The notes beneath the pieces were generated by a model. That model did no database searches. It was not told the DNA's origin and saw only the letters and a program-made list of their open reading frames with translations. Position numbers and translations under genes: made by a program. This document shows, piece after piece, positions 20,201 to 34,038 of a stretch of 53,057 nt of DNA. Source of the DNA: an uncultured Chloroflexus sp. (lineage in GTDB: Bacteria > Chloroflexota > Chloroflexia > Chloroflexales > Chloroflexaceae); NCBI RefSeq assembly GCF_937129525.1, contig NZ_CAKZNK010000119.1:1-53057 (forward strand), written 5' to 3'. The stretch's first letter is position 1. Every line of letters begins with the position of its first letter.

Positions 20201-22633
20201 ATGAAGCGTTCGATCAGTCTGTTGTTGCTGGTCGGTATGCTGGCCTCGATGCTCGCCGCTTGTGGCGGCGGCCAGGCCCAGCCGACAGCGACGCCGCAGC
20301 CGGCTGCGCAGGCGACGACGGCTCCTGCCCCCACAGCAGCGCCGCAGCCGACAGCTCCGGCAGCAACTCCCGGTCAGGTGATTAAGATTGCGACTCAAAG
20401 CCCGTTGTCGGGTGGTCAGGCCGCGCTGGGTACCGGTATCAAGAATGCGGCGGAGCTGGCAGTCAAGCAGCTCTCCGGTCCGCTGGCTGAGCTTGGGTTT
20501 ACGGTTGTCCTCGAGCCGTTTGACGACCAGGCCCGGCCAGAGGTTGGTTCGGCCAACGCCAAGAATATCGTCTCCGATCAGGACATTCTCTGCGTAGTCG
20601 GTCACCTCAATTCGGGTGTGGCGCTGGCGGCGCTACCTGATTACAAGAATGCCCGCCTGGCGATGGTTTCGCCAGCCAACACCAACCCGAACATCACCGA
20701 GGGTGGCTATGAAGTGGCCTTCCGCGTGGTCGGTCGCGACGACGTGCAGGGTGCGGTGGCCGAGAAGTTTGCCCGCGAAGAGCTGGGGGTGAAGTCGGTC
20801 TACATCATTCACGACACGACAGCCTACGGTCAGGGTGTGGCCGAGTTCTTCCGCCAGAATGCGCTGGCGAACGGGTTGCAGGTGCTGGGCTTTGAGGGCA
20901 CGGAGGAACGGAGTGATTTCTCGGCCATCCTGACCCCGATCCTGGCAGCCAATCCGGATCTGGTCTTCTTTGGCGGCATCTACGACCAGGCCGGGCCCCT
21001 CTTCCGCCAGGCCCGCGACCGCGGTATTACCGCGCAGTTTATGGGTCCTGACGGTCTCGAATCAGAAGAATTGGTGACCCTGGCCGGCGATGCGGTTGAT
21101 GGGATGTACTACACCACCGTGGCTGCGCCGGTGAGCCAATTCCCCGATGCCGCGAAGTATGCGCAAGACTATCAGGCTGCCTTCGGTGACGCGGCCCCGG
21201 CATTCTCGGCCCAGGCCTACGATGCCACCGGCATCTGCTTGACCGCAATTGCTAACGCCGCGAAGGCTGCCGGCGGCAAGCCGACCCGCGAGCAGGTGTT
21301 GGCGGCAATCAAGGCGCTGACTTCGTATAAGGGCATCACCGGCACTTACACCTTCAGCCCCAAGGGTGACCCCAATCCGGCAACCTATTTCGTGTTGCAG
21401 GTCAATGCGGCCAACTGGAATGAGAACCGGCTGGTGACCCGCCTCGAAATTGCGCCTCCTGGCGAAGCTCCGGCTGGCGGTGCGACGCAATTCGATCTGG
21501 CGGCGCTGGCCGCCCAACTCGGTGCGGTTGCTGGCCGGCTCGGCACAATCAAGATCGCGACGCAGGGTCCGCTGTCAGGTGGTCAGGCCGCGCTGGGTAC
21601 CGGTATGAAGAATGCGGCGGAGCTGGCAGTCGAGCAGCTCAATGCTCAACTGGGCGCACTGGGCATCAAGTTCGAGCTGGTGCCGTTTGACGACCAGGCC
21701 CGGCCAGAGGTTGGTTCGGCCAACGCCAAGAATATCGTCTCCGATCAGGACATTCTCTGCGTAGTCGGTCACCTCAATTCGGGTGTGGCGCTGGCGGCGC
21801 TACCTGATTACAAGAATGCCCGCCTGGCGATGGTTTCGCCAGCCAACACCAACCCGAACATCACCGAGGGTGGCTATGAAGTGGCCTTCCGCGTGGTCGG
21901 TCGCGACGACGTGCAGGGTGCGGTGGCCGAGAAGTTTGCCCGCGAAGAGCTGGGGGTGAAGTCGGTCTACATCATTCACGACACGACAGCCTACGGTCAG
22001 GGTGTGGCCGAGTTCTTCCGCCAGAATGCGCTGGCGAACGGGTTGCAGGTGCTGGGCTTTGAGGGCACGGAGGAACGGAGTGATTTCTCGGCCATCCTGA
22101 CCCCGATCCTGGCAGCCAATCCGGATCTGGTCTTCTTTGGCGGCATCTACGACCAGGCCGGGCCGTTCTTCCGCCAGGCCCGCGACCGTGGTATTACCGC
22201 GCAGTTTATGGGTCCCGACGGCCTCGAGTCGGCGGAACTGGTCGATCTGGCTGGCGATGCAGTCGATGGGATGCACTATACCACCGTGGCTGCGCCGGTG
22301 AGCCAGTTCCCCAAGGCAGCAAAATATGCTCAGGACTACCAGGCTGCCTTCGGCGATGTTGCGCCCGCCTTCTCAGCGCAGGCCTACGATGCGGCCAATA
22401 TCTGCGCCGCAGGCATCCTGTCGGCAGCTATTGCTGCCGGCGGCAAGCCGACCCGCGCTCAGGTGGTAGAAGCAATTCGCAACCTGCCACCGTTTCCTGG
22501 CATCACCGGTACGTTTGACTTCAATGCGGAGGGTGACCCGACTGTGGCAACCTACTTCGTGTTGAAGGTGAATGCGGCTGATTGGAACCAGAATGAGCTG
22601 ATTAGCCGCCTGGAGATTGCGCCGCCGCAATAA
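20201..22633 (+). CDS. lipoprotein with two tandem LivJ-type ligand-binding domains
   Basis: An 810-residue binding protein for the adjacent branched-chain amino-acid ABC transporter. It has a lipoprotein signal with LAAC (lipid Cys21) and a Pro/Ala/Thr linker to about 60. A first Peripla_BP_6 domain runs from VIKIATQSPLSGGQAALGTG to about 430. A short Ala-rich linker leads to a second complete domain from TIKIATQGPLSGGQAALGTG to the end. Usual LivJ proteins have one domain of about 370 residues. The ligand is probably a branched-chain or other hydrophobic amino acid, but is not provable here. CAAGGAG upstream supports the start. The two halves share a perfectly matching 483-bp tract. Confidence 0.9.
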   Translation: MKRSISLLLLVGMLASMLAACGGGQAQPTATPQPAAQATTAPAPTAAPQPTAPAATPGQVIKIATQSPLSGGQAALGTGIKNAAELAVKQLSGPLAELGFTVVLEPFDDQARPEVGSANAKNIVSDQDILCVVGHLNSGVALAALPDYKNARLAMVSPANTNPNITEGGYEVAFRVVGRDDVQGAVAEKFAREELGVKSVYIIHDTTAYGQGVAEFFRQNALANGLQVLGFEGTEERSDFSAILTPILAANPDLVFFGGIYDQAGPLFRQARDRGITAQFMGPDGLESEELVTLAGDAVDGMYYTTVAAPVSQFPDAAKYAQDYQAAFGDAAPAFSAQAYDATGICLTAIANAAKAAGGKPTREQVLAAIKALTSYKGITGTYTFSPKGDPNPATYFVLQVNAANWNENRLVTRLEIAPPGEAPAGGATQFDLAALAAQLGAVAGRLGTIKIATQGPLSGGQAALGTGMKNAAELAVEQLNAQLGALGIKFELVPFDDQARPEVGSANAKNIVSDQDILCVVGHLNSGVALAALPDYKNARLAMVSPANTNPNITEGGYEVAFRVVGRDDVQGAVAEKFAREELGVKSVYIIHDTTAYGQGVAEFFRQNALANGLQVLGFEGTEERSDFSAILTPILAANPDLVFFGGIYDQAGPFFRQARDRGITAQFMGPDGLESAELVDLAGDAVDGMHYTTVAAPVSQFPKAAKYAQDYQAAFGDVAPAFSAQAYDAANICAAGILSAAIAAGGKPTRAQVVEAIRNLPPFPGITGTFDFNAEGDPTVATYFVLKVNAADWNQNELISRLEIAPPQ
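20515..20997 (+). repeat. copy 1 of a 483-bp internal direct repeat
   Basis: Reads base for base the same as 21682-22164, at an offset of 1167 bp (389 codons). It includes synonymous positions. Flanking codons of the two domains differ. Confidence 0.9.
21682..22164 (+). repeat. copy 2 of the 483-bp internal direct repeat
   Basis: Partner of 20515-20997. Identity breaks on the left at GAG versus GTG (codon before CCG) and on the right at CTC versus TTC after GGGCC. Confidence 0.9.
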
Positions 22634-27071: not shown

Positions 27072-27758
27072 TCAGGGCAGTAGTCGATAGCCAATCCCCC
27101 ATTCGGTCAGCAAGAGTTGCGGATTGCGCGGATCAAGCTCGATTTTGCGCCGTAAATGCCAGATATAGACTTTGAGATAATCGTTGTCACGGGCCTGCTG
27201 GCTTCCCCAAACCGTGCGCAGAAGCTGTTCGTGGTCAACCACCGCGCCAGCCTGTTCGGCCAGTACGAGCAGTAACTGATACTCGGTAGGGGTTAGATCG
27301 ATGAGTTCTCCGCGCACTCGCACCTCGCGTTGGCGCGGATCGATACTGATCAGCCCGTTGCCGGCAGTCAGCAGACGATTGACCGCCGGAACGCGCCGCA
27401 GAAGGGCGCGAATGCGCGCGAGCAATTCATCGTAGTTAAAGGGCTTGACCAGGTAGTCATCGGCGCCCTGGTCGAGACCGGTGATGACATCGCCTGGCAA
27501 GGATTTGGCCGTCAGCATCAGGATGGGTATCGAGGAAAATTCGCGCGCGCGCTGGCAGACGGTTAAGCCATCGAGGTCGGGCAACATAATATCGAGGATG
27601 ACAAGGTCAGGACGTTGCTTACGTATCAGCGTAAGCGCCTCTACGCCGCTCAACGTTTGAAGTACGCGATAACCTTCTTGCTCGAGACGAACCCGTACCA
27701 GTTCTTGCAAACCGGTGTCATCATCGACAACCAGAATCGTTTGCGCTTGCTGCTCCAT
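27072..27758 (-). CDS. OmpR-family response regulator (no adjacent kinase)
   Basis: A 228-residue regulator. The receiver domain has acidic pocket DDD at 12-14, phospho-acceptor Asp56 in VILDIMLPD, switch Thr in MLTAKS and Lys in YLVKPFN. The C-terminal winged helix begins near LISIDPRQREVRV, with LTPTEYQLLLVLAEQAG and VYIWHLRRKIE. The start MEQQAQ at 27758 is preferred over the open frame to 27836, which would run into the upstream gene. It begins 28 bp after the J-like/thioredoxin gene, so it is probably co-transcribed with the cytochrome c maturation genes. No histidine kinase gene is in the window. Confidence 0.92.
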   Translation of the reverse strand: MEQQAQTILVVDDDTGLQELVRVRLEQEGYRVLQTLSGVEALTLIRKQRPDLVILDIMLPDLDGLTVCQRAREFSSIPILMLTAKSLPGDVITGLDQGADDYLVKPFNYDELLARIRALLRRVPAVNRLLTAGNGLISIDPRQREVRVRGELIDLTPTEYQLLLVLAEQAGAVVDHEQLLRTVWGSQQARDNDYLKVYIWHLRRKIELDPRNPQLLLTEWGIGYRLLP

Positions 27759-27786
27759 TGATCTCTTCCCCGCAGTGATGATGTCT

Positions 27787-28629
27787 TTACGGTTGCGCGC
27801 CACTGGCAGGACGTAGTTCGGCAAAGCGGGCCGCAATATCGGTCAATGTCAGCTCACCGATGTGGACGTAGCGAATCTGGCCGTCTGTGGTGATAAAAAA
27901 GCTGGTTGGGAGCGGAAAGACCCGGTAGGCCTCGGTGATTTTGCCGTCGAGATCGAGTGCGATTGGGTAGGTCACCCCATATTGGGCCAGAAAAGCAGCC
28001 ACATCTTCAATTGTTTGCCCTTGCATCTGTTCATCATCGGTGAGATTGACGCCGATGATCATGAGACCCTGATCGGAAAATTGCTCGTAAGCTTGTTGTA
28101 ACGCCGGCAGTTCACGTTTACACGGTTCACACCAGGTGCCCCAAAAATTGATCAGCACCACTTTGCCGCGATACTGAGCAAGTTCGATAGTGCCGCCACG
28201 CAGCTCTTGTGCGCTGAAGTTGGGAGCCGGGCGGTTGATTTCACCCATGGCCTGTCCGCTCAGGGTGTTGCGATTGGTAAACACCCAGACGGCCACAACC
28301 AACCCGACGGCAAGCAACGCAAACGTCAATGCGCCAAGCGCTTCGTTACGGCTCAAGCCACGTCGCGCAGGCCGGGACGGTGGCGTGATCAATCCTTGAC
28401 TGATGTCATACTGTCGGCGCCGTTCTGGATCGCTAAGGATACGAAACGCTCGCTCCAGTTCAGCCAGTCGTTCGCGCGCAACTGCTTGCAGCTCGTGATC
28501 GAGATCGACGAGACGTTCAGGCGCGTAGCGCTGGCGCTGTTGTTCGTAGGCAGCCGCAATGGTTGCCTGATCAGCATCAACACTGACCCCAAGCAGATTG
28601 TAGTAATTGTGACCGGTCATTTCCGTCAT
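27787..28629 (-). CDS. J-like domain fused through a membrane segment to a TlpA/ResA/CcmG-type thioredoxin
   Basis: 280 residues in three parts. Residues 8-76 look like a J domain (YYNLLGVSVDADQATIAAAY and FRILSDPERRRQYD), but the HPD motif is replaced by APE at 36-38, so Hsp70 stimulation is not expected. A transmembrane segment spans about 97-118. An extracytoplasmic thioredoxin domain follows, with WCEPC (C167, C170) and a cis-Pro at about 244. CcmG/ResA proteins reduce apocytochrome c cysteines before heme attachment. It lies 33 bp after the J-like/TPR gene in the ccm cluster and is the likely CcmG-equivalent. AAGGA with 9-nt spacing supports the start. Confidence 0.88.
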   Translation of the reverse strand: MTEMTGHNYYNLLGVSVDADQATIAAAYEQQRQRYAPERLVDLDHELQAVARERLAELERAFRILSDPERRRQYDISQGLITPPSRPARRGLSRNEALGALTFALLAVGLVVAVWVFTNRNTLSGQAMGEINRPAPNFSAQELRGGTIELAQYRGKVVLINFWGTWCEPCKRELPALQQAYEQFSDQGLMIIGVNLTDDEQMQGQTIEDVAAFLAQYGVTYPIALDLDGKITEAYRVFPLPTSFFITTDGQIRYVHIGELTLTDIAARFAELRPASGAQP

Positions 28630-28661
28630 TCTAGCATATCCTTAACGATTTGTTTATACCA

Positions 28662-29765
28662 TCATTGACCGTATTCGTTGATCAATATTTGCGCCTGTAG
28701 TTGCAATCCCGGATTCACACCCGGAATTGACAATACCAGTTGCCATTGCTCAATCGCTCGCTCGGTTTGGGGTGGTTCGATAGCGACCAGGCAGATACCG
28801 TGCGAAAGGAGCACCCGCGCATTTTGCGGCGCTGCCTGTAAAGCCTTTTCAGCTTCCGCCAGTCCTTCCTGGGCGCGTTGCGGGTTGCCTGTATCGAGAC
28901 CGTAATAGCAGAGACTGGCGGCAATGTCGGCTCGCACGACATCGTTGTCTGGTTGCAATTCGAGCGCCTTGCGGTAGGCGTCAACGGCTTCAAGCCAGCG
29001 TGGCAGTCGTTCCTGATAGATACGCTGAGTTTCGGCGTCGCCGCTGGCGAGTTGTTCGCGCACATAGACCACGCTATCAAACAGGGCGTTGCCGAGATTG
29101 ATCCAGGCTGCTGGATTATCAGGTACTTGAGCGGTAACTTGCTGGGCCGCAATGACCTGGCCGTCAAACTCGCTCAGAATGTCGCGCAGCGTTGGCGTGG
29201 GTTGCGCTATCGGCGCCGTCGGGTTGATCGGCGCGGCTGGCGCTGGCGCCACGACCATCGTGCTGATCAACGTGCCGAGGACGATGCTAAATGTGGCCGC
29301 GGCAACAATTAACGATGGCAGCAGCCAGACTGGTTGTGATGGTGGTACCGCTCGACCACGTTGAACCGGAGCCGAAGCTGAGCGCGGATTGAGATACGGT
29401 TGTGGATTGAAACCCGGTGGTCGTTCCTGCCGGCGCGCTGGCGGTAGTGGTCGAAAATCGATCAGATCATCATCGGTGGCGGCCTCGGCAAGAGCGGGAT
29501 CGGATTCGCTATGCACTGCCGGCGGTGTGGGGCGCAGCATGTCTTGCAAACGACGATCGTACTCGGCGCGTCGCTGCGGATCGCTCAACACACTGTAGGC
29601 CCGTTCGATTTCATCACGTCGCCGTCGGGCCAATTCAATCAATTCTTCGGCTGCGCCTTCTAGCCGTTCGGGAGCATAGCGTTCGCGCAGGCGCTCATAC
29701 GCAGCCCTGATCGCCTCAGCGTCAGCTTTGGGGTGAACCTGAAGGATTTCGTAATAGTCGTTCAT
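28662..29765 (-). CDS. J-like domain fused through a membrane segment to a TPR domain
   Basis: 367 residues. Residues 3-72 resemble a J domain (DYYEILQVHPKADAEAIRAAY and YSVLSDPQRRAEYD), with APE at 31-33 in place of HPD, exactly as in the neighbouring thioredoxin fusion. A Pro-rich cytoplasmic linker runs to about 145 and a transmembrane segment spans about 147-172. The rest is extracytoplasmic with TPR-like helices (NPAAWINLGNALFDS, AVDAYRKALELQPDN). By position after ccmF and by the TPR domain it may act like the CcmI/NrfG chaperone part of the heme-ligation machinery; this is inference. It has no CxxC motif of a CcmH type. Confidence 0.85.
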   Translation of the reverse strand: MNDYYEILQVHPKADAEAIRAAYERLRERYAPERLEGAAEELIELARRRRDEIERAYSVLSDPQRRAEYDRRLQDMLRPTPPAVHSESDPALAEAATDDDLIDFRPLPPARRQERPPGFNPQPYLNPRSASAPVQRGRAVPPSQPVWLLPSLIVAAATFSIVLGTLISTMVVAPAPAAPINPTAPIAQPTPTLRDILSEFDGQVIAAQQVTAQVPDNPAAWINLGNALFDSVVYVREQLASGDAETQRIYQERLPRWLEAVDAYRKALELQPDNDVVRADIAASLCYYGLDTGNPQRAQEGLAEAEKALQAAPQNARVLLSHGICLVAIEPPQTERAIEQWQLVLSIPGVNPGLQLQAQILINEYGQ

Positions 29766-29893: not shown

Positions 29894-32287
29894 CTAGCGC
29901 CCGATGCCACGCCAGCCCAGTTGCGCGGCCAGTTCTGGCAATGCTTTGGGCAAGCGCACACGGGCGCCGGCCAGCGCCAGACTTCCTTCGAGGTAACGCC
30001 GCACCAGCGCAATGGCGCCGCCAATCACCATCAAGACAACTCCTACCCAGACCAGTATCACCAGCGGTTTGACACTCACCGCAATGACGGCTTTAGCCGG
30101 CACGACTGGCAGATCGTCGAGACCTGACCCGCTCCCTTCCAGTAACACCATGCGGTTGGTCGGATCGAGTTCAAGCAAGCGCAGTTCGTGGCCACCAGGG
30201 AGCGTAACCGGGATGAATTGCAGCTCGCTCTCATTGGTGGTCGGGTTGATCACCACTTCTACTCGCGGCTCTACCTCGATAGTCTGGCCTTCGTAGATGA
30301 CTTCAACCCGCGCGCCGACCTTTGCTTCACCGCGCATCATCGCTTCACGGTCGATATTGAAGCCGCGGAAGGTGAGGGTATATGGCCCCATCTGGGCGCT
30401 CTGGTCAGCTCCGAGCACTGGACGAGCCGGATTGCGTTCAGGATCGTAGCCAGCCGGAGAGATGTAGAGATCGTGCCAGAAATAACTATGGATGGAAGGA
30501 GTCTGCATGGTTGCGCCCATGCGCTGATTGAAATAGAGGTACGGTTTGGCCGAGAAGGTGCTTGATCCATCGCTGACCGTCAAATCGAGCACACCGCGCT
30601 GCTGATCATCAAGCTGGTAGCCATTGAAAATAAACTCGTAGCCGAACAGGCGGGCCGACTCGCCGGGGGCCAGGGTCAGGCGCGTGTCAGGCGTGGCATA
30701 CGCCGACGATGCCACCATCCCGATTGCCATGACGGTAAAGCCGAGGTGGGCCAGATAGCCGCCAATGCGGAGCCAACCACCGCGTAGTGTGCGTACCAGC
30801 ATGAGCAGATTTGTGCCAAAGGCAAATGCGCCACCTGCTACATAAGCCAGCGCCAGCACATCGCGCACATTGATCAGCATCGCAACGATAGCGGCAACCA
30901 CTGCCAGCGCTGCCGGCCAGCGCAAAGCTCGCAACAGATGGCTGAAGTTGGCATCACGCCAGCCAAGTAACGGGCCGACAATGAGCAGCACAATTGCAAC
31001 TACGCCCAACGGTGGCACAGTGCGCTGATAGAAGGAGGGAGCAAGCGAGAAGCGCCCATCCTCAAACGGCTGCGCTTGCGGATTCATCAATGTGCCATCA
31101 TCAAGCTCAAAGTAGCGCCCCATCCATTCTTGCAGGGTGTGACCAACGCCGGGAATGGCCGAGATGACCGGCATTGAAGTGCCGAGGCCAACCACCAGTG
31201 CCACCATCACAATCGTGATAATTGCCAGCACGAAGAAGCTATCGCGTGAGAAGAATTTATCGCTCAGTGGGCGAGCGGGAATGTCGTTCCAGCGGCTGAT
31301 CAGCGAGATGACGCCGATTGCAAGCAGGACAACCAGAAATCCGACCAGCCCTTCAAAGATGCCTTCGGCTACGAATGAATGCACTGAGAAATTGGCGTAG
31401 ACTCCACTGCGGGTCATGAAGGTAGCGTAGAAGACAGTAATATAGGTTGTCACCCCCAATACCAGATTGGTTTTTCGCAAACCGCCATGAGTGCGCTGCA
31501 CCAGCATACCATGGATCAGGGCAGTGAGGATGAGCCAGGGCACCAGTGACGAGTTTTCGACCGGATCCCATCCCCAGTAACCACCCCAGCCCAGGGTCTC
31601 ATAAGCCCAGTAGCCGCCAAGGAGCAGCGCCAGGCCGAGAAACGACCATGCCGCCAGTGTCCACGGTAGCGCGCGCTTGACCCAGGTATCGTAGTCGCGC
31701 CGCCACAAAGCTGCCAATGCAAAGGCGAAGGGGATCGTTGCAAGGGCATAACCGACGAAGAGTACTGGTGGATGGATAATCATCCAGAAGTTGTGCAGGA
31801 GTGGATTGAGGCCGCGGCCATCACCGGGGGTGAGCGCTACGCCAGTCGTAGGATCGATGAGGGGCTGGAACGGATTGAGCGCCAGCACAAAGCCGATGAT
31901 AGCAGCCTGCACAGTCATCACCACCATCAGCACATACGGCTCAAAATGCTTGGTGCGACGCACCAGCAATGCGCTGGCAATAGCGCCCCATAGCAGCCAG
32001 ATCATGAAGCTGCCTGGTTGTCCGGCCCAGCTTGCGGCGATGGTGAAGAAGAATTCGAGGTCACGCGAACTATAGTTATAGACATAATCGAGATCGAAAC
32101 GGCGGGCCAGGAAGACGGTAATGAGTAGTGTCCACGACATCAGCACGCCGGCCAGCGCTGCGTAGACGCCAAACCGGCCATAGCTCAGCGCGGCCCGCTG
32201 TCCACGGATCACCAATCCGTAGCTAATCGTCGCCAGCAGGGTCATGCCAAGGCTGGCCATCAAAAGGAACGTGCCGAAGAGATACAT
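29894..32287 (-). CDS. ccmF: cytochrome c heme lyase subunit CcmF
   Basis: A 797-residue polytopic heme-handling protein of System I cytochrome c maturation. The periplasmic WWD motif is GGYWAYETLGWGGYWGWDP, followed by NSSLVPWL. It also has IIHPPVLFVGYA and a large extracytoplasmic C-terminal region before a final membrane helix. Length and topology suit bacterial CcmF (about 650 or more; this one is on the long side). It receives heme from CcmE and attaches it to apocytochrome CxxCH. It lies 73 bp after ccmE. Confidence 0.95.
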   Translation of the reverse strand: MYLFGTFLLMASLGMTLLATISYGLVIRGQRAALSYGRFGVYAALAGVLMSWTLLITVFLARRFDLDYVYNYSSRDLEFFFTIAASWAGQPGSFMIWLLWGAIASALLVRRTKHFEPYVLMVVMTVQAAIIGFVLALNPFQPLIDPTTGVALTPGDGRGLNPLLHNFWMIIHPPVLFVGYALATIPFAFALAALWRRDYDTWVKRALPWTLAAWSFLGLALLLGGYWAYETLGWGGYWGWDPVENSSLVPWLILTALIHGMLVQRTHGGLRKTNLVLGVTTYITVFYATFMTRSGVYANFSVHSFVAEGIFEGLVGFLVVLLAIGVISLISRWNDIPARPLSDKFFSRDSFFVLAIITIVMVALVVGLGTSMPVISAIPGVGHTLQEWMGRYFELDDGTLMNPQAQPFEDGRFSLAPSFYQRTVPPLGVVAIVLLIVGPLLGWRDANFSHLLRALRWPAALAVVAAIVAMLINVRDVLALAYVAGGAFAFGTNLLMLVRTLRGGWLRIGGYLAHLGFTVMAIGMVASSAYATPDTRLTLAPGESARLFGYEFIFNGYQLDDQQRGVLDLTVSDGSSTFSAKPYLYFNQRMGATMQTPSIHSYFWHDLYISPAGYDPERNPARPVLGADQSAQMGPYTLTFRGFNIDREAMMRGEAKVGARVEVIYEGQTIEVEPRVEVVINPTTNESELQFIPVTLPGGHELRLLELDPTNRMVLLEGSGSGLDDLPVVPAKAVIAVSVKPLVILVWVGVVLMVIGGAIALVRRYLEGSLALAGARVRLPKALPELAAQLGWRGIGR

Positions 32288-32360: not shown

Positions 32361-32780
32361 TTACGGTTTAGCCTGATCGATCTCCTGGTACTTCGATGGG
32401 CACTTGACCAGCAGATCGTCGGCCATAAATGCCTGCTCTGTGGGATCGTAGCGACCAATGGCTACGATGCTGATGGCCTGCTCGAAGTTGGCCGGACGCG
32501 GATCGTCTGAGATGACCTTGATCATCTTGCCGTTTTCATCTTGCAGCATGAACGTGAAGCGGCCTTGCTCGTCCATTTCGCCGGTGCTACCGAGAAAACC
32601 GGCCAGTTGGACGCTGCGCGCGCTGCTCATCGCCTCATCGACGCTGGTCGTGTAGGCGCGGAAACCATCTTGAAAGCCGAAGAAGCCGTATACCACAGCC
32701 AGCAGAATGATCCCCAGCCCAACGATATGCAGTGGCTTGATGGTCAGACTGCGGCGCACAGGAGTGGTTGCAACAGCCAT
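32361..32780 (-). CDS. ccmE: cytochrome c maturation heme chaperone CcmE, Cys-type
   Basis: A 139-residue protein with an N-terminal membrane anchor (about 17-35) and an OB-fold heme-shuttle domain (RSVQLAGFLGSTGEMDEQGRF). The heme-binding motif is KCPSKY, with Cys127 and Tyr131. Classical CcmE uses His in HxxxY. A CxxxY form is known from Desulfovibrio and some archaea and defines a System I variant. The C-terminus is short after the motif. It takes heme from CcmC and passes it to CcmF. Confidence 0.92.
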   Translation of the reverse strand: MAVATTPVRRSLTIKPLHIVGLGIILLAVVYGFFGFQDGFRAYTTSVDEAMSSARSVQLAGFLGSTGEMDEQGRFTFMLQDENGKMIKVISDDPRPANFEQAISIVAIGRYDPTEQAFMADDLLVKCPSKYQEIDQAKP

Positions 32781-33078: not shown

Positions 33079-34038
33079 TCAGGCCCTCCCGCGTTGCGCA
33101 ACCGCCCACTGCAAGTTTAAGACCAGTGAACGGATCTGCCACATCCAGAAGAAGAGTGCAGTAAAACCAAGGTTGGCAGCCAAGAAGACGTAGAGTGTTC
33201 GCCGGTTTTCCAGCAACTGCGTGCCCGGCGCTTCCATGTTCAGGCGCACAGCGCCGGTGGATTCATCGTATTCTTCTAACCCTAACTGGAAACGCGAACC
33301 GGGAAATTCAGGCCGGGCTGCCATGCCACCGTCAACTAGATCAAGACTGGGGTAGAGAATAGCCTCTTGCTGCAAACCTGGTGTGCTTACTTTGACTTCA
33401 GCCACGATCAGGTTTCCCTGACGCTCTAGGCCAAGCAATTGCACCTTCTGGTCTCCGATCAAACCGACCTTACCGACTTCGAGCACAATCCCATCGCAAT
33501 TGCTGCCCTGAATGAATGCGCAATTTGGATGCAGGGTGCTATCGGCAATGCGTGGAGCAACGAAGAAGAGGAAGGGCATAGTAACGAAGGCGAAGAGGGA
33601 ATAGACGGCGCTCAATTGGCGGCGACGGTCAACATCGTCAATGGCCGCGCGCAGAGCAAAGAGCGCAGCGTAGATCAGCAAGAGCACGAAAATGGATGTC
33701 TGGCGTGGATCCCAATTCCAGAAGATACCCCAGGCTACCTGTGAGAAGATCATGCCGGTAACTGTGGCCAGAATGGTGAAGAGAAGACCGGCTTCAGCAG
33801 CCGCTACAGCCATGTGATCATCGCGTTCACGCCGTCGCCAGAGGTACAAACCGCTGAAGATGGCCGAGATGGTAAATGCGATCACACTGACCCAGGCCGT
33901 TGGCACATGAACGATGACGATCCGGCCCGCTTCTCCTAACCCTTCATACTGCGGCACAATGAGAAAGGTTGCAATGGTAACGCCAGCCATCCACAGGCCA
34001 ATGCCGATCTTTGCTACTTGTGCCAGTCGTTGCGCCAT
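33079..34038 (-). CDS. ccmC: heme-handling protein CcmC with a large extracytoplasmic insertion
   Basis: A 319-residue polytopic protein that presents heme to CcmE. The WWD-type motif SQVAWGIFWNWDPRQT sits at about 99-114. Candidate heme-ligand histidines are H44 (VIVHVP) and H170 (TLHP). Typical CcmC is about 240 residues. Here about 100 extra residues (roughly 172-278) sit between the last two membrane segments. They include a Cys pair (C173, C181) and a beta-rich stretch. It is the first gene of the cluster, with a promoter candidate 50-80 bp upstream. Confidence 0.92.
   Translation of the reverse strand: MAQRLAQVAKIGIGLWMAGVTIATFLIVPQYEGLGEAGRIVIVHVPTAWVSVIAFTISAIFSGLYLWRRRERDDHMAVAAAEAGLLFTILATVTGMIFSQVAWGIFWNWDPRQTSIFVLLLIYAALFALRAAIDDVDRRRQLSAVYSLFAFVTMPFLFFVAPRIADSTLHPNCAFIQGSNCDGIVLEVGKVGLIGDQKVQLLGLERQGNLIVAEVKVSTPGLQQEAILYPSLDLVDGGMAARPEFPGSRFQLGLEEYDESTGAVRLNMEAPGTQLLENRRTLYVFLAANLGFTALFFWMWQIRSLVLNLQWAVAQRGRA

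Follow-up and report, generated by a model that had tools for sequence, protein, structure and literature searches.

The present analysis concerns a contig of 53,057 nucleotides from an uncultured Chloroflexus sp. (NZ_CAKZNK010000119.1; hereafter the window, which is the entire contig, in a genome of 4.48 Mb that is 99.97% complete), and within it two adjacent minus-strand open reading frames, 27787-28629 (280 aa) and 28662-29765 (367 aa), that follow a group of cytochrome c maturation (ccm) genes and encode membrane proteins beginning with a J-like domain. We refer to the first as J-TlpA, which ends in a ResA/CcmG-like thioredoxin, and to the second as J-TPR, which ends in a CcmI-like TPR domain. 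J domains are usually read as recruiters of Hsp70. A J fold that lacks the HPD motif, appears to be selected in J-TPR, is linked to ccm genes and stands twice beside a CcmF fits a repurposed module that would not use Hsp70, and a lineage of photosynthetic and related bacteria appears to have moved a J domain from the chaperone system to the cytochrome c assembly line, under selection. As to its function, we lean, if only slightly, towards an Hsp70-independent cytosolic docking module that would hold the TPR chaperone and the reductase at CcmF; we infer both the docking and the identity of CcmF as the partner.

J-like domains without HPD

The earlier note on this DNA had proposed J-like N-termini from the sequence and suggested a profile search of them. 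Both match Pfam DnaJ (49.1 bits in J-TPR, 45.7 bits in J-TlpA) over the cut-off of 27.8 bits, so the assignment is not due to chance; a chance likeness to J domains was rejected on these scores together with the four J helices predicted in each protein. AlphaFold models, built on alignments of 44 (TPR) and 35 (TlpA) sequences, give both proteins these four helices, one long helix and then the TPR or thioredoxin domain, with a mean pLDDT (predicted local distance difference test) of 86.7 in each and 10-residue block means over the J part of 91-98 (TPR) and 86-93 (TlpA). The J-like helical hairpin on which the note depended is thus predicted with good confidence, and the single membrane helix followed by a thioredoxin or TPR module, also described there, is seen in the models and by Pfam. 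The C-terminal part of J-TlpA has a Pfam AhpC-TSA/Redoxin match (AhpC-TSA 116.8 bits) and lies nearest ResA 2h1b in structure (Z 23.2, root-mean-square deviation 1.2, 137 residues aligned; CcmG 1kng, Z 18.1), with NCBIfam scores under the cut-offs for both ResA (145.3 bits, cut-off 170) and DsbE (72.6, cut-off 123.15). WCxxC is present in 77 of 81 TlpA frames (duplicate records counted), the remainder reading SSCAPC (two) or giving no match (two). The C-terminal part of J-TPR matches TPR families, TPR_CcmH_CycH at 32.5 bits being under its curated cut-off of 42. Structure-search matches cover the thioredoxin part (VIA, model residues 127-277) and TPR proteins (Foldseek), not the J part. Arginines stand before each membrane helix, on its N-terminal side, which suggests that the J part is cytosolic; an N-in topology is most likely.

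The HPD motif has a role in the work of J domains on Hsp70 (PMC10423991). It is found in 82 of 83 comparison J domains, namely 32/32 DnaJ/CbpA proteins from the same genome group and 50 of 51 other J domains (those scoring at least 45 with the J profile of this analysis, plus one from this genome), and in none of 49 J-TPR rows and none of 42 J-TlpA rows, two of the latter being gapped there. Another alignment (50, 40 and 35 rows) gives the same HPD picture, the two odd rows among the 35 being J-TlpA fragments. The earlier note had described A-P-E as standing in place of HPD. Both window proteins do read A-P-E, but it is not a fixed motif: the triplet of J-TPR is DPA in 12 rows, APE in nine and SAE in four, with 18 further types, and that of J-TlpA is NPE in nine, APE in five and TPD and DPA in four each, with others besides. 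Even among eight genomes of the window's genus APE occurs in seven J-TPR and three J-TlpA proteins, and it is also found in some other genera. APE was therefore rejected as a specific new motif replacing HPD; it is one form among many, and what is constant across the Chloroflexales is the absence of HPD. Within the triplet, the histidine is lost in all but one of 91 rows (two gapped), the final aspartate is kept in nine of 40 ungapped TlpA rows and in no TPR row, and the central proline is kept in 37 of 49 TPR rows and 34 of 40 ungapped TlpA rows. A positively charged helix II is likewise a feature that J domains use to work on Hsp70. Its mean net charge is +0.45 in J-TPR and +0.05 in J-TlpA, whereas DnaJ/CbpA average +2.75 and the other comparison domains +1.98. 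With HPD absent and helix II near neutral, two features for working on Hsp70 are gone, and the J-like domains, having lost both, should no longer drive Hsp70. Six J domains of this genome exceed the Pfam cut-off: three of the DnaJ/CbpA type with HPD, those of J-TPR and J-TlpA, and one further domain with HPD. This sixth protein (L130, G000:C40; L and G numbers are our labels for loci and genomes) keeps HPD, has a low-complexity stretch behind it and matches DnaJ only in Pfam.

The J parts of J-TPR and J-TlpA probably share one origin. From the HPD site to the tyrosine of the EAY stretch there are 23 residues in 49 of 49 J-TPR and 38 of 42 J-TlpA proteins (11 or 13 in the other four); the same spacing is 17-18 residues in DnaJ/CbpA (32/32), and 23 residues also occur in 12 of 51 other J domains. 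A tree of 174 J domains places every J-like row on one side of a branch, with a support by the Shimodaira-Hasegawa-like approximate likelihood ratio test of 97 with and 94 without the HPD columns. With few alignment columns and no established root, the tree makes a single origin likely but does not prove it, and the paralogy claimed in the earlier note stands to that extent. Elsewhere in the Chloroflexota (L156, L158-L160, L162, L164, L165), a J domain with HPD and a long loop is joined to an HExxH end; this fusion ranks among the top hits to the J-like profile beyond the Chloroflexales, with Pfam zincin checked on L158 only.

Selection, linkage to ccm genes and distribution

Selection was estimated from eight genomes of the window's genus (28 pairs). 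Because the proportion of synonymous differences (pS) is 0.60-0.71 in all regions and thus near saturation, the comparison is limited to the proportion of nonsynonymous differences (pN). In J-TPR, pN is 0.054 for the J domain, 0.066 for the TPR domain and 0.407 and 0.415 for the two linkers, the J domain changing seven to eight times more slowly than the linkers; by this measure, purifying selection on the J domain is strong. The J domain of J-TlpA is less constrained (pN 0.127, with 0.065 for the thioredoxin). A 26-residue stretch around the juxtamembrane motif DYRPLPPARRQER, residues 99-124 of J-TPR, has a pN of 0.023. The motif residues D103, P106 and L107 are invariant in 41/41 and 44/44 rows, and a stricter pattern search recovers the motif from 67 of 87 TPR frames (counting duplicate records); the remaining frames are broken or truncated, or have variants such as DYAPLPPA and DYRPLPPRR. 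All six genomes without the J part retain DYRPLP, and the TPR protein there still begins with the motif; the motif outlasts the J part.

CcmF, TPR and TlpA genes stand together in 46 of 57 loci with distinct CcmF. Both proteins carry a J part in 35 of the 46, the TPR protein only in nine, neither in two and the TlpA protein only in none, two frame-split loci having been relabelled by hand; before relabelling the counts were 33, 10, 2 and 1. On the CcmF tree of these loci the presence of the TPR J needs one change and that of the TlpA J five, the latter most simply losses. The two genes lie on separate contigs in G018, G028, G029, G338 and G340, and the partner gene is absent from the several kilobases of flank read in G018, G338 and G340. 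Despite this separation G018, G028, G029 and G340 retain both J parts (the TlpA J of G340 being shortened); the TlpA protein of G338 has no J part. J-TlpA was found without J-TPR in the fragmented assemblies G015, G342, G343 and G346, with a 6 kb upstream flank lacking J-TPR in G342. Some draft genomes have frame-split J-TPR or J-TlpA genes (L121-L124, L278), which reflect either sequencing error or a real break.

J-TlpA goes with CcmF a second time, and does so without an adjoining J-TPR. Five genomes (G019 twice, G046, G337, G340, G342; six loci, L263-L268) encode a second J-TlpA at another locus, in each case immediately behind a CcmF with 34-39% identity to that of the window over the aligned part. 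In L266 this CcmF is present only as a fragment on the contig, and in L263 there follows a further CcmF with 49% identity. For the three loci scanned (L265, L267, L268), the CcmF assignment is confirmed by Pfam. HPD is present in none of the six second J-TlpA proteins and the end of their J domain is eroded, the J part being under the Pfam cut-off or below the listed matches in all four TlpA proteins scanned. J-TPR is not beside these loci, though four of the five genomes have one elsewhere. A DUF3105 protein is encoded near the second cluster, after TlpA in L268 and upstream of CcmF in L265.

The Chloroflexota search took in 301 genomes, including 29 Chloroflexales. Among the matches listed, the fusions of J with TPR and of J with TlpA are all in that order; only a few best candidates were scored per genome. 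Twenty high-scoring J regions from this search were inspected, and each one with a J part has HPD. A species-wide scan covered one genome for each of 84,980 species; its pre-selection by two short peptide patterns, with the best 80 of 188 relatives kept, may have passed over distant forms. Its 47 best loci belong to the J-TPR/J-TlpA family and have ccmF on the same stretch in 44 cases, the remaining three (L201, L203, L210) starting near a contig end. By title, 43 of these loci are Chloroflexota, two are simply 'bacterium', and the other two are metagenome-assembled genomes, one of Cyanobacteria and one of Gracilibacteria. The last two (L210, Cyanobacteria M5B4, and L226, Gracilibacteria SM1_231_1) carry the Chloroflexales J-TPR family and are probably mixed or misnamed bins. 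All 31 further loci kept, which match by the J part only, have HPD, one of them with a second J reading DPD. BLAST with the window's proteins recognised no ccm gene on the stretches that hold the TPR matches outside the Chloroflexales (L166, L167). Neither the matches listed in the Chloroflexota search nor the best 80 of 188 in the species-wide scan include an HPD-less relative with unrelated partners, and the wide occurrence with unrelated partners that would tell against the earlier note was thus not encountered there. The note had also suggested checking how often APE domains occur next to ccm genes: the HPD-less J is found with ccm genes across the Chloroflexales, but APE itself varies.

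Proposed docking at CcmF and its alternatives

By its gene content, the machine is a variant System I: CcmE is of the CxxxY type in 55 of 55 distinct CcmE examined, and CcmH was found in none of 61 genomes, the window's own included, by a search whose control was positive in four of 14. CcmB and a DsbD/CcdA-type membrane protein are encoded elsewhere in the genome. Within this machine, J-TPR would be the CcmI-like apocytochrome chaperone and J-TlpA the CcmG/ResA-like thiol reductase. The J-like domain would go back to a J domain in which both HPD and the positive charge of helix II disappeared. From its predicted position on the cytosolic side of the single membrane helix, it would act with the DYRPLPPARRQER motif to hold the TPR chaperone at the CcmF lyase, in many lineages together with the reductase, and would let reduced apocytochrome and heme meet outside. 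Such a module would take over some of the tasks that may fall to CcmH and to CcmI's cytoplasmic stretch in other systems. Since the J part is kept by selection in at least one of the two proteins though HPD is lost, it is probably a docking piece. The earlier note had likewise proposed a J-like fold repurposed as a cytoplasmic scaffold; a repurposed module fits the selection, the ccm linkage and the second CcmF, but the tethering of the two J parts to each other, which the note had allowed for, is unsupported.

Co-evolution was assessed from distances on 29 of the 46 loci with CcmC and the response regulator removed (partial r, 1000 permutations). The thioredoxin follows CcmF at 0.54 and the TPR domain follows CcmF at 0.44 (0/1000 permutations as high in each), and the thioredoxin follows the TPR domain at 0.33 (2/1000); these signals support a joint machine. 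The TlpA J follows CcmF weakly (0.19, 3/1000), and also follows the TPR domain (0.26, 10/1000) and its own thioredoxin (0.22, 29/1000). The TPR J shows no excess co-evolution with the TlpA J (0.05, 284/1000, at low power) and no signal with its own TPR domain (0.09, 207/1000) or with the thioredoxin (0.00, 457/1000). Several results weigh against docking at CcmF. The strongly conserved TPR J shows no excess co-evolution with CcmF either (0.07, 213/1000), five changes of the TlpA J are required on the CcmF tree, with shortening or erosion of this domain in further cases, and one genus (six genomes) has no J part in either protein. As that genus keeps the motif in 6/6 genomes and the ccm cluster in the two examined, the J part is not essential to the machine. 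The results for the TPR J lend no support to a contact with CcmF or to pairing of the two J domains; as this J domain gives no signal even with its own protein, the test has little strength for a domain of such short length.

Pairing in the manner of Pam16/Pam18 would mean direct binding between the two J-like domains, which would link the reductase with the TPR chaperone on the cytosolic side. J-like pairs have been described for Pam16-Pam18 (PMC3806816) and, by yeast two-hybrid, for CJD1-ARC6 (PMC3196505). The two genes here are mostly adjacent, their J parts are related, with the 23-residue loop in common and a place on one side of the tree, and a TlpA J never occurs with an intact J-less TPR protein in the 46 loci. 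Nevertheless, the TPR J persists in the nine loci with a J-less TlpA, where it would need another partner, J-TlpA is found without J-TPR in the four fragmented assemblies and without an adjoining one in the second cluster, even in genomes that have J-TPR elsewhere, and the two J domains show no excess co-evolution in the low-power test above. We consider such pairing quite unlikely. Alternatively, an ancestral J protein might have recruited DnaK to the membrane and then lost HPD, leaving a domain that is now mostly dead weight. The lack of any fixed replacement for HPD, the losses and erosion of the TlpA J and the disappearance of both J parts in one genus would all be expected of a decaying remnant, which is plausible for the TlpA copy but not for the TPR copy, whose J domain changes as slowly as its TPR domain and whose presence needs only a single change on the CcmF tree of the 46 loci. 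As an explanation of the J-like domains in general, we think this unlikely. It would be more surprising still if the domains recruited DnaK in some non-canonical manner. The fold is kept, as is the central proline in most rows and the final aspartate in a minority of TlpA rows, but the histidine is almost always gone, the aspartate is missing from all TPR and most TlpA rows, helix II is nearly neutral, and the J-like domain of CJD1 did not replace E. coli DnaJ (PMC3196505), all of which makes such recruitment highly improbable.

Should docking at CcmF be correct, bacterial proteins annotated with a 'DnaJ domain' but lacking HPD may carry docking modules, and there would be a testable answer to how a CcmF lyase holds its chaperone and reductase without CcmH. 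A more far-reaching version, which we regard as very doubtful, is a bacterial J-like assembly code. In it, HPD-less J domains on the cytosolic ends of single-helix proteins would sort the subunits acting outside, the apocytochrome chaperone and the thiol reductase, and link them with one another and with the CcmF to which they belong, with two parallel CcmF systems per cell; it would be a bacterial equivalent of Pam16/Pam18, but with both halves independent of Hsp70.

The locus and its relation to known systems

On the minus strand the gene order is ccmC, ccmE, ccmF, J-TPR, J-TlpA and a response regulator gene (Table 1), such that the ccm context claimed in the earlier note is confirmed by Pfam directly upstream of the J pair. 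The response regulator gene lies 3' of the TlpA gene in most relatives examined, even where TlpA sits away from the other ccm genes; it may regulate the ccm genes or may be simply a fixed neighbour, the evidence being one of association only. Elsewhere in the window, 20201-22633 encodes an 810-aa binding protein composed of two very similar halves, with branched-chain amino-acid-type permease and ATPase genes downstream.

Table 1. Positions of the ccm genes, the J-TPR and J-TlpA proteins and their parts in the window
Feature	Position	Strand	Basis
CcmC	33079..34038	-	Pfam Cytochrom_C_asm 84.4 bits; NCBIfam ccmC 101.5 bits, under cut-off 186
CcmE, C-x-x-x-Y type	32361..32780	-	Pfam CcmE 43.1 bits
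CcmF heme lyase	29894..32287	-	Pfam Cytochrom_C_asm 101.2 bits, CcmF_C 83.1 bits
J-TPR protein, 367 aa: J-like domain, linker, juxtamembrane motif, one transmembrane helix, CcmI-like TPR domain	28662..29765	-	Open reading frame, Pfam, model
J-like domain of TPR protein, residues 3-72	29550..29759	-	Pfam DnaJ 49.1 bits (residues 3-70); model helices 4-8, 16-29, 40-60, 63-77
J-TPR A-P-E at HPD position, residues 31-33	29667..29675	-	Sequence, alignment
J-TPR juxtamembrane motif DFRPLPPARRQER, residues 103-115	29421..29459	-	Conservation, pN, retention where J lost
J-TPR transmembrane helix, residues 148-169	29259..29324	-	Model
J-TPR TPR domain, residues 193-366	28668..29189	-	Pfam TPR families, model, Foldseek TPR matches
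J-TlpA protein, 280 aa: J-like domain, one transmembrane helix, ResA/CcmG-like thioredoxin	27787..28629	-	Open reading frame, Pfam, model
J-like domain of TlpA protein, residues 8-77	28399..28608	-	Pfam DnaJ 45.7 bits (residues 8-75); model helices 9-13, 21-34, 45-66, 68-77
J-TlpA A-P-E at HPD position, residues 36-38	28516..28524	-	Sequence, alignment
J-TlpA transmembrane helix, residues 94-122	28264..28350	-	Model
J-TlpA ResA/CcmG-like thioredoxin, residues 130-275, WCEPC	27805..28242	-	Pfam AhpC-TSA; ResA 2h1b
OmpR/PhoB-type response regulator	27072..27761	-	Pfam Response_reg, Trans_reg_C

A variant System I with a CxxxY CcmE and no CcmH was reportedly described by Allen et al. in 2006. The present machine resembles it in both respects, with CcmC, CcmE and CcmF encoded in the window and CcmB elsewhere in the genome, but differs in that its TPR subunit and its CcmG/ResA-like subunit carry J-like domains. 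Archaea are described as lacking CcmD, CcmH and CcmI (PMC9084895). CcmI has a role together with CcmF and CcmH, and in Rhodobacter and Pseudomonas its N-terminus forms two membrane helices with a short cytoplasmic stretch between them (PMC3884852). Like such CcmI/NrfG-type apocytochrome chaperones, J-TPR has a membrane-anchored TPR domain and is encoded beside CcmF; unlike CcmI, it has a single helix, preceded by the J-like domain and the motif, and it stays under the TPR_CcmH_CycH cut-off. J-TlpA shares with CcmG and ResA one N-terminal helix and a thioredoxin fold with WCxxC that is close to both in structure, but it adds an N-terminal J-like domain and stays under the NCBIfam ResA cut-off.

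The earlier note knew of no described system of this kind, and in the open-licence literature, covered by titles and the openings of abstracts, we found no paper joining a J domain with cytochrome c maturation or with the Chloroflexota. HPD-less J-like domains as such, however, are known. With Hsp40/DnaJ co-chaperones, the proteins described here have the four-helix J fold in common, but they have neither HPD nor a positive helix II. Closer in this respect are Pam16/Tim16, CPP1/CDF1, CJD1 and ARC6, membrane-associated proteins with a J fold without HPD that are thought to bind proteins other than Hsp70 (PMC10423991, PMC3196505). As far as these sources indicate, those proteins are mitochondrial or chloroplast proteins with other roles, CPP1 also having a cyanobacterial homologue, whereas in the Chloroflexales the J-like domain is fused to subunits of the cytochrome c maturation machine.

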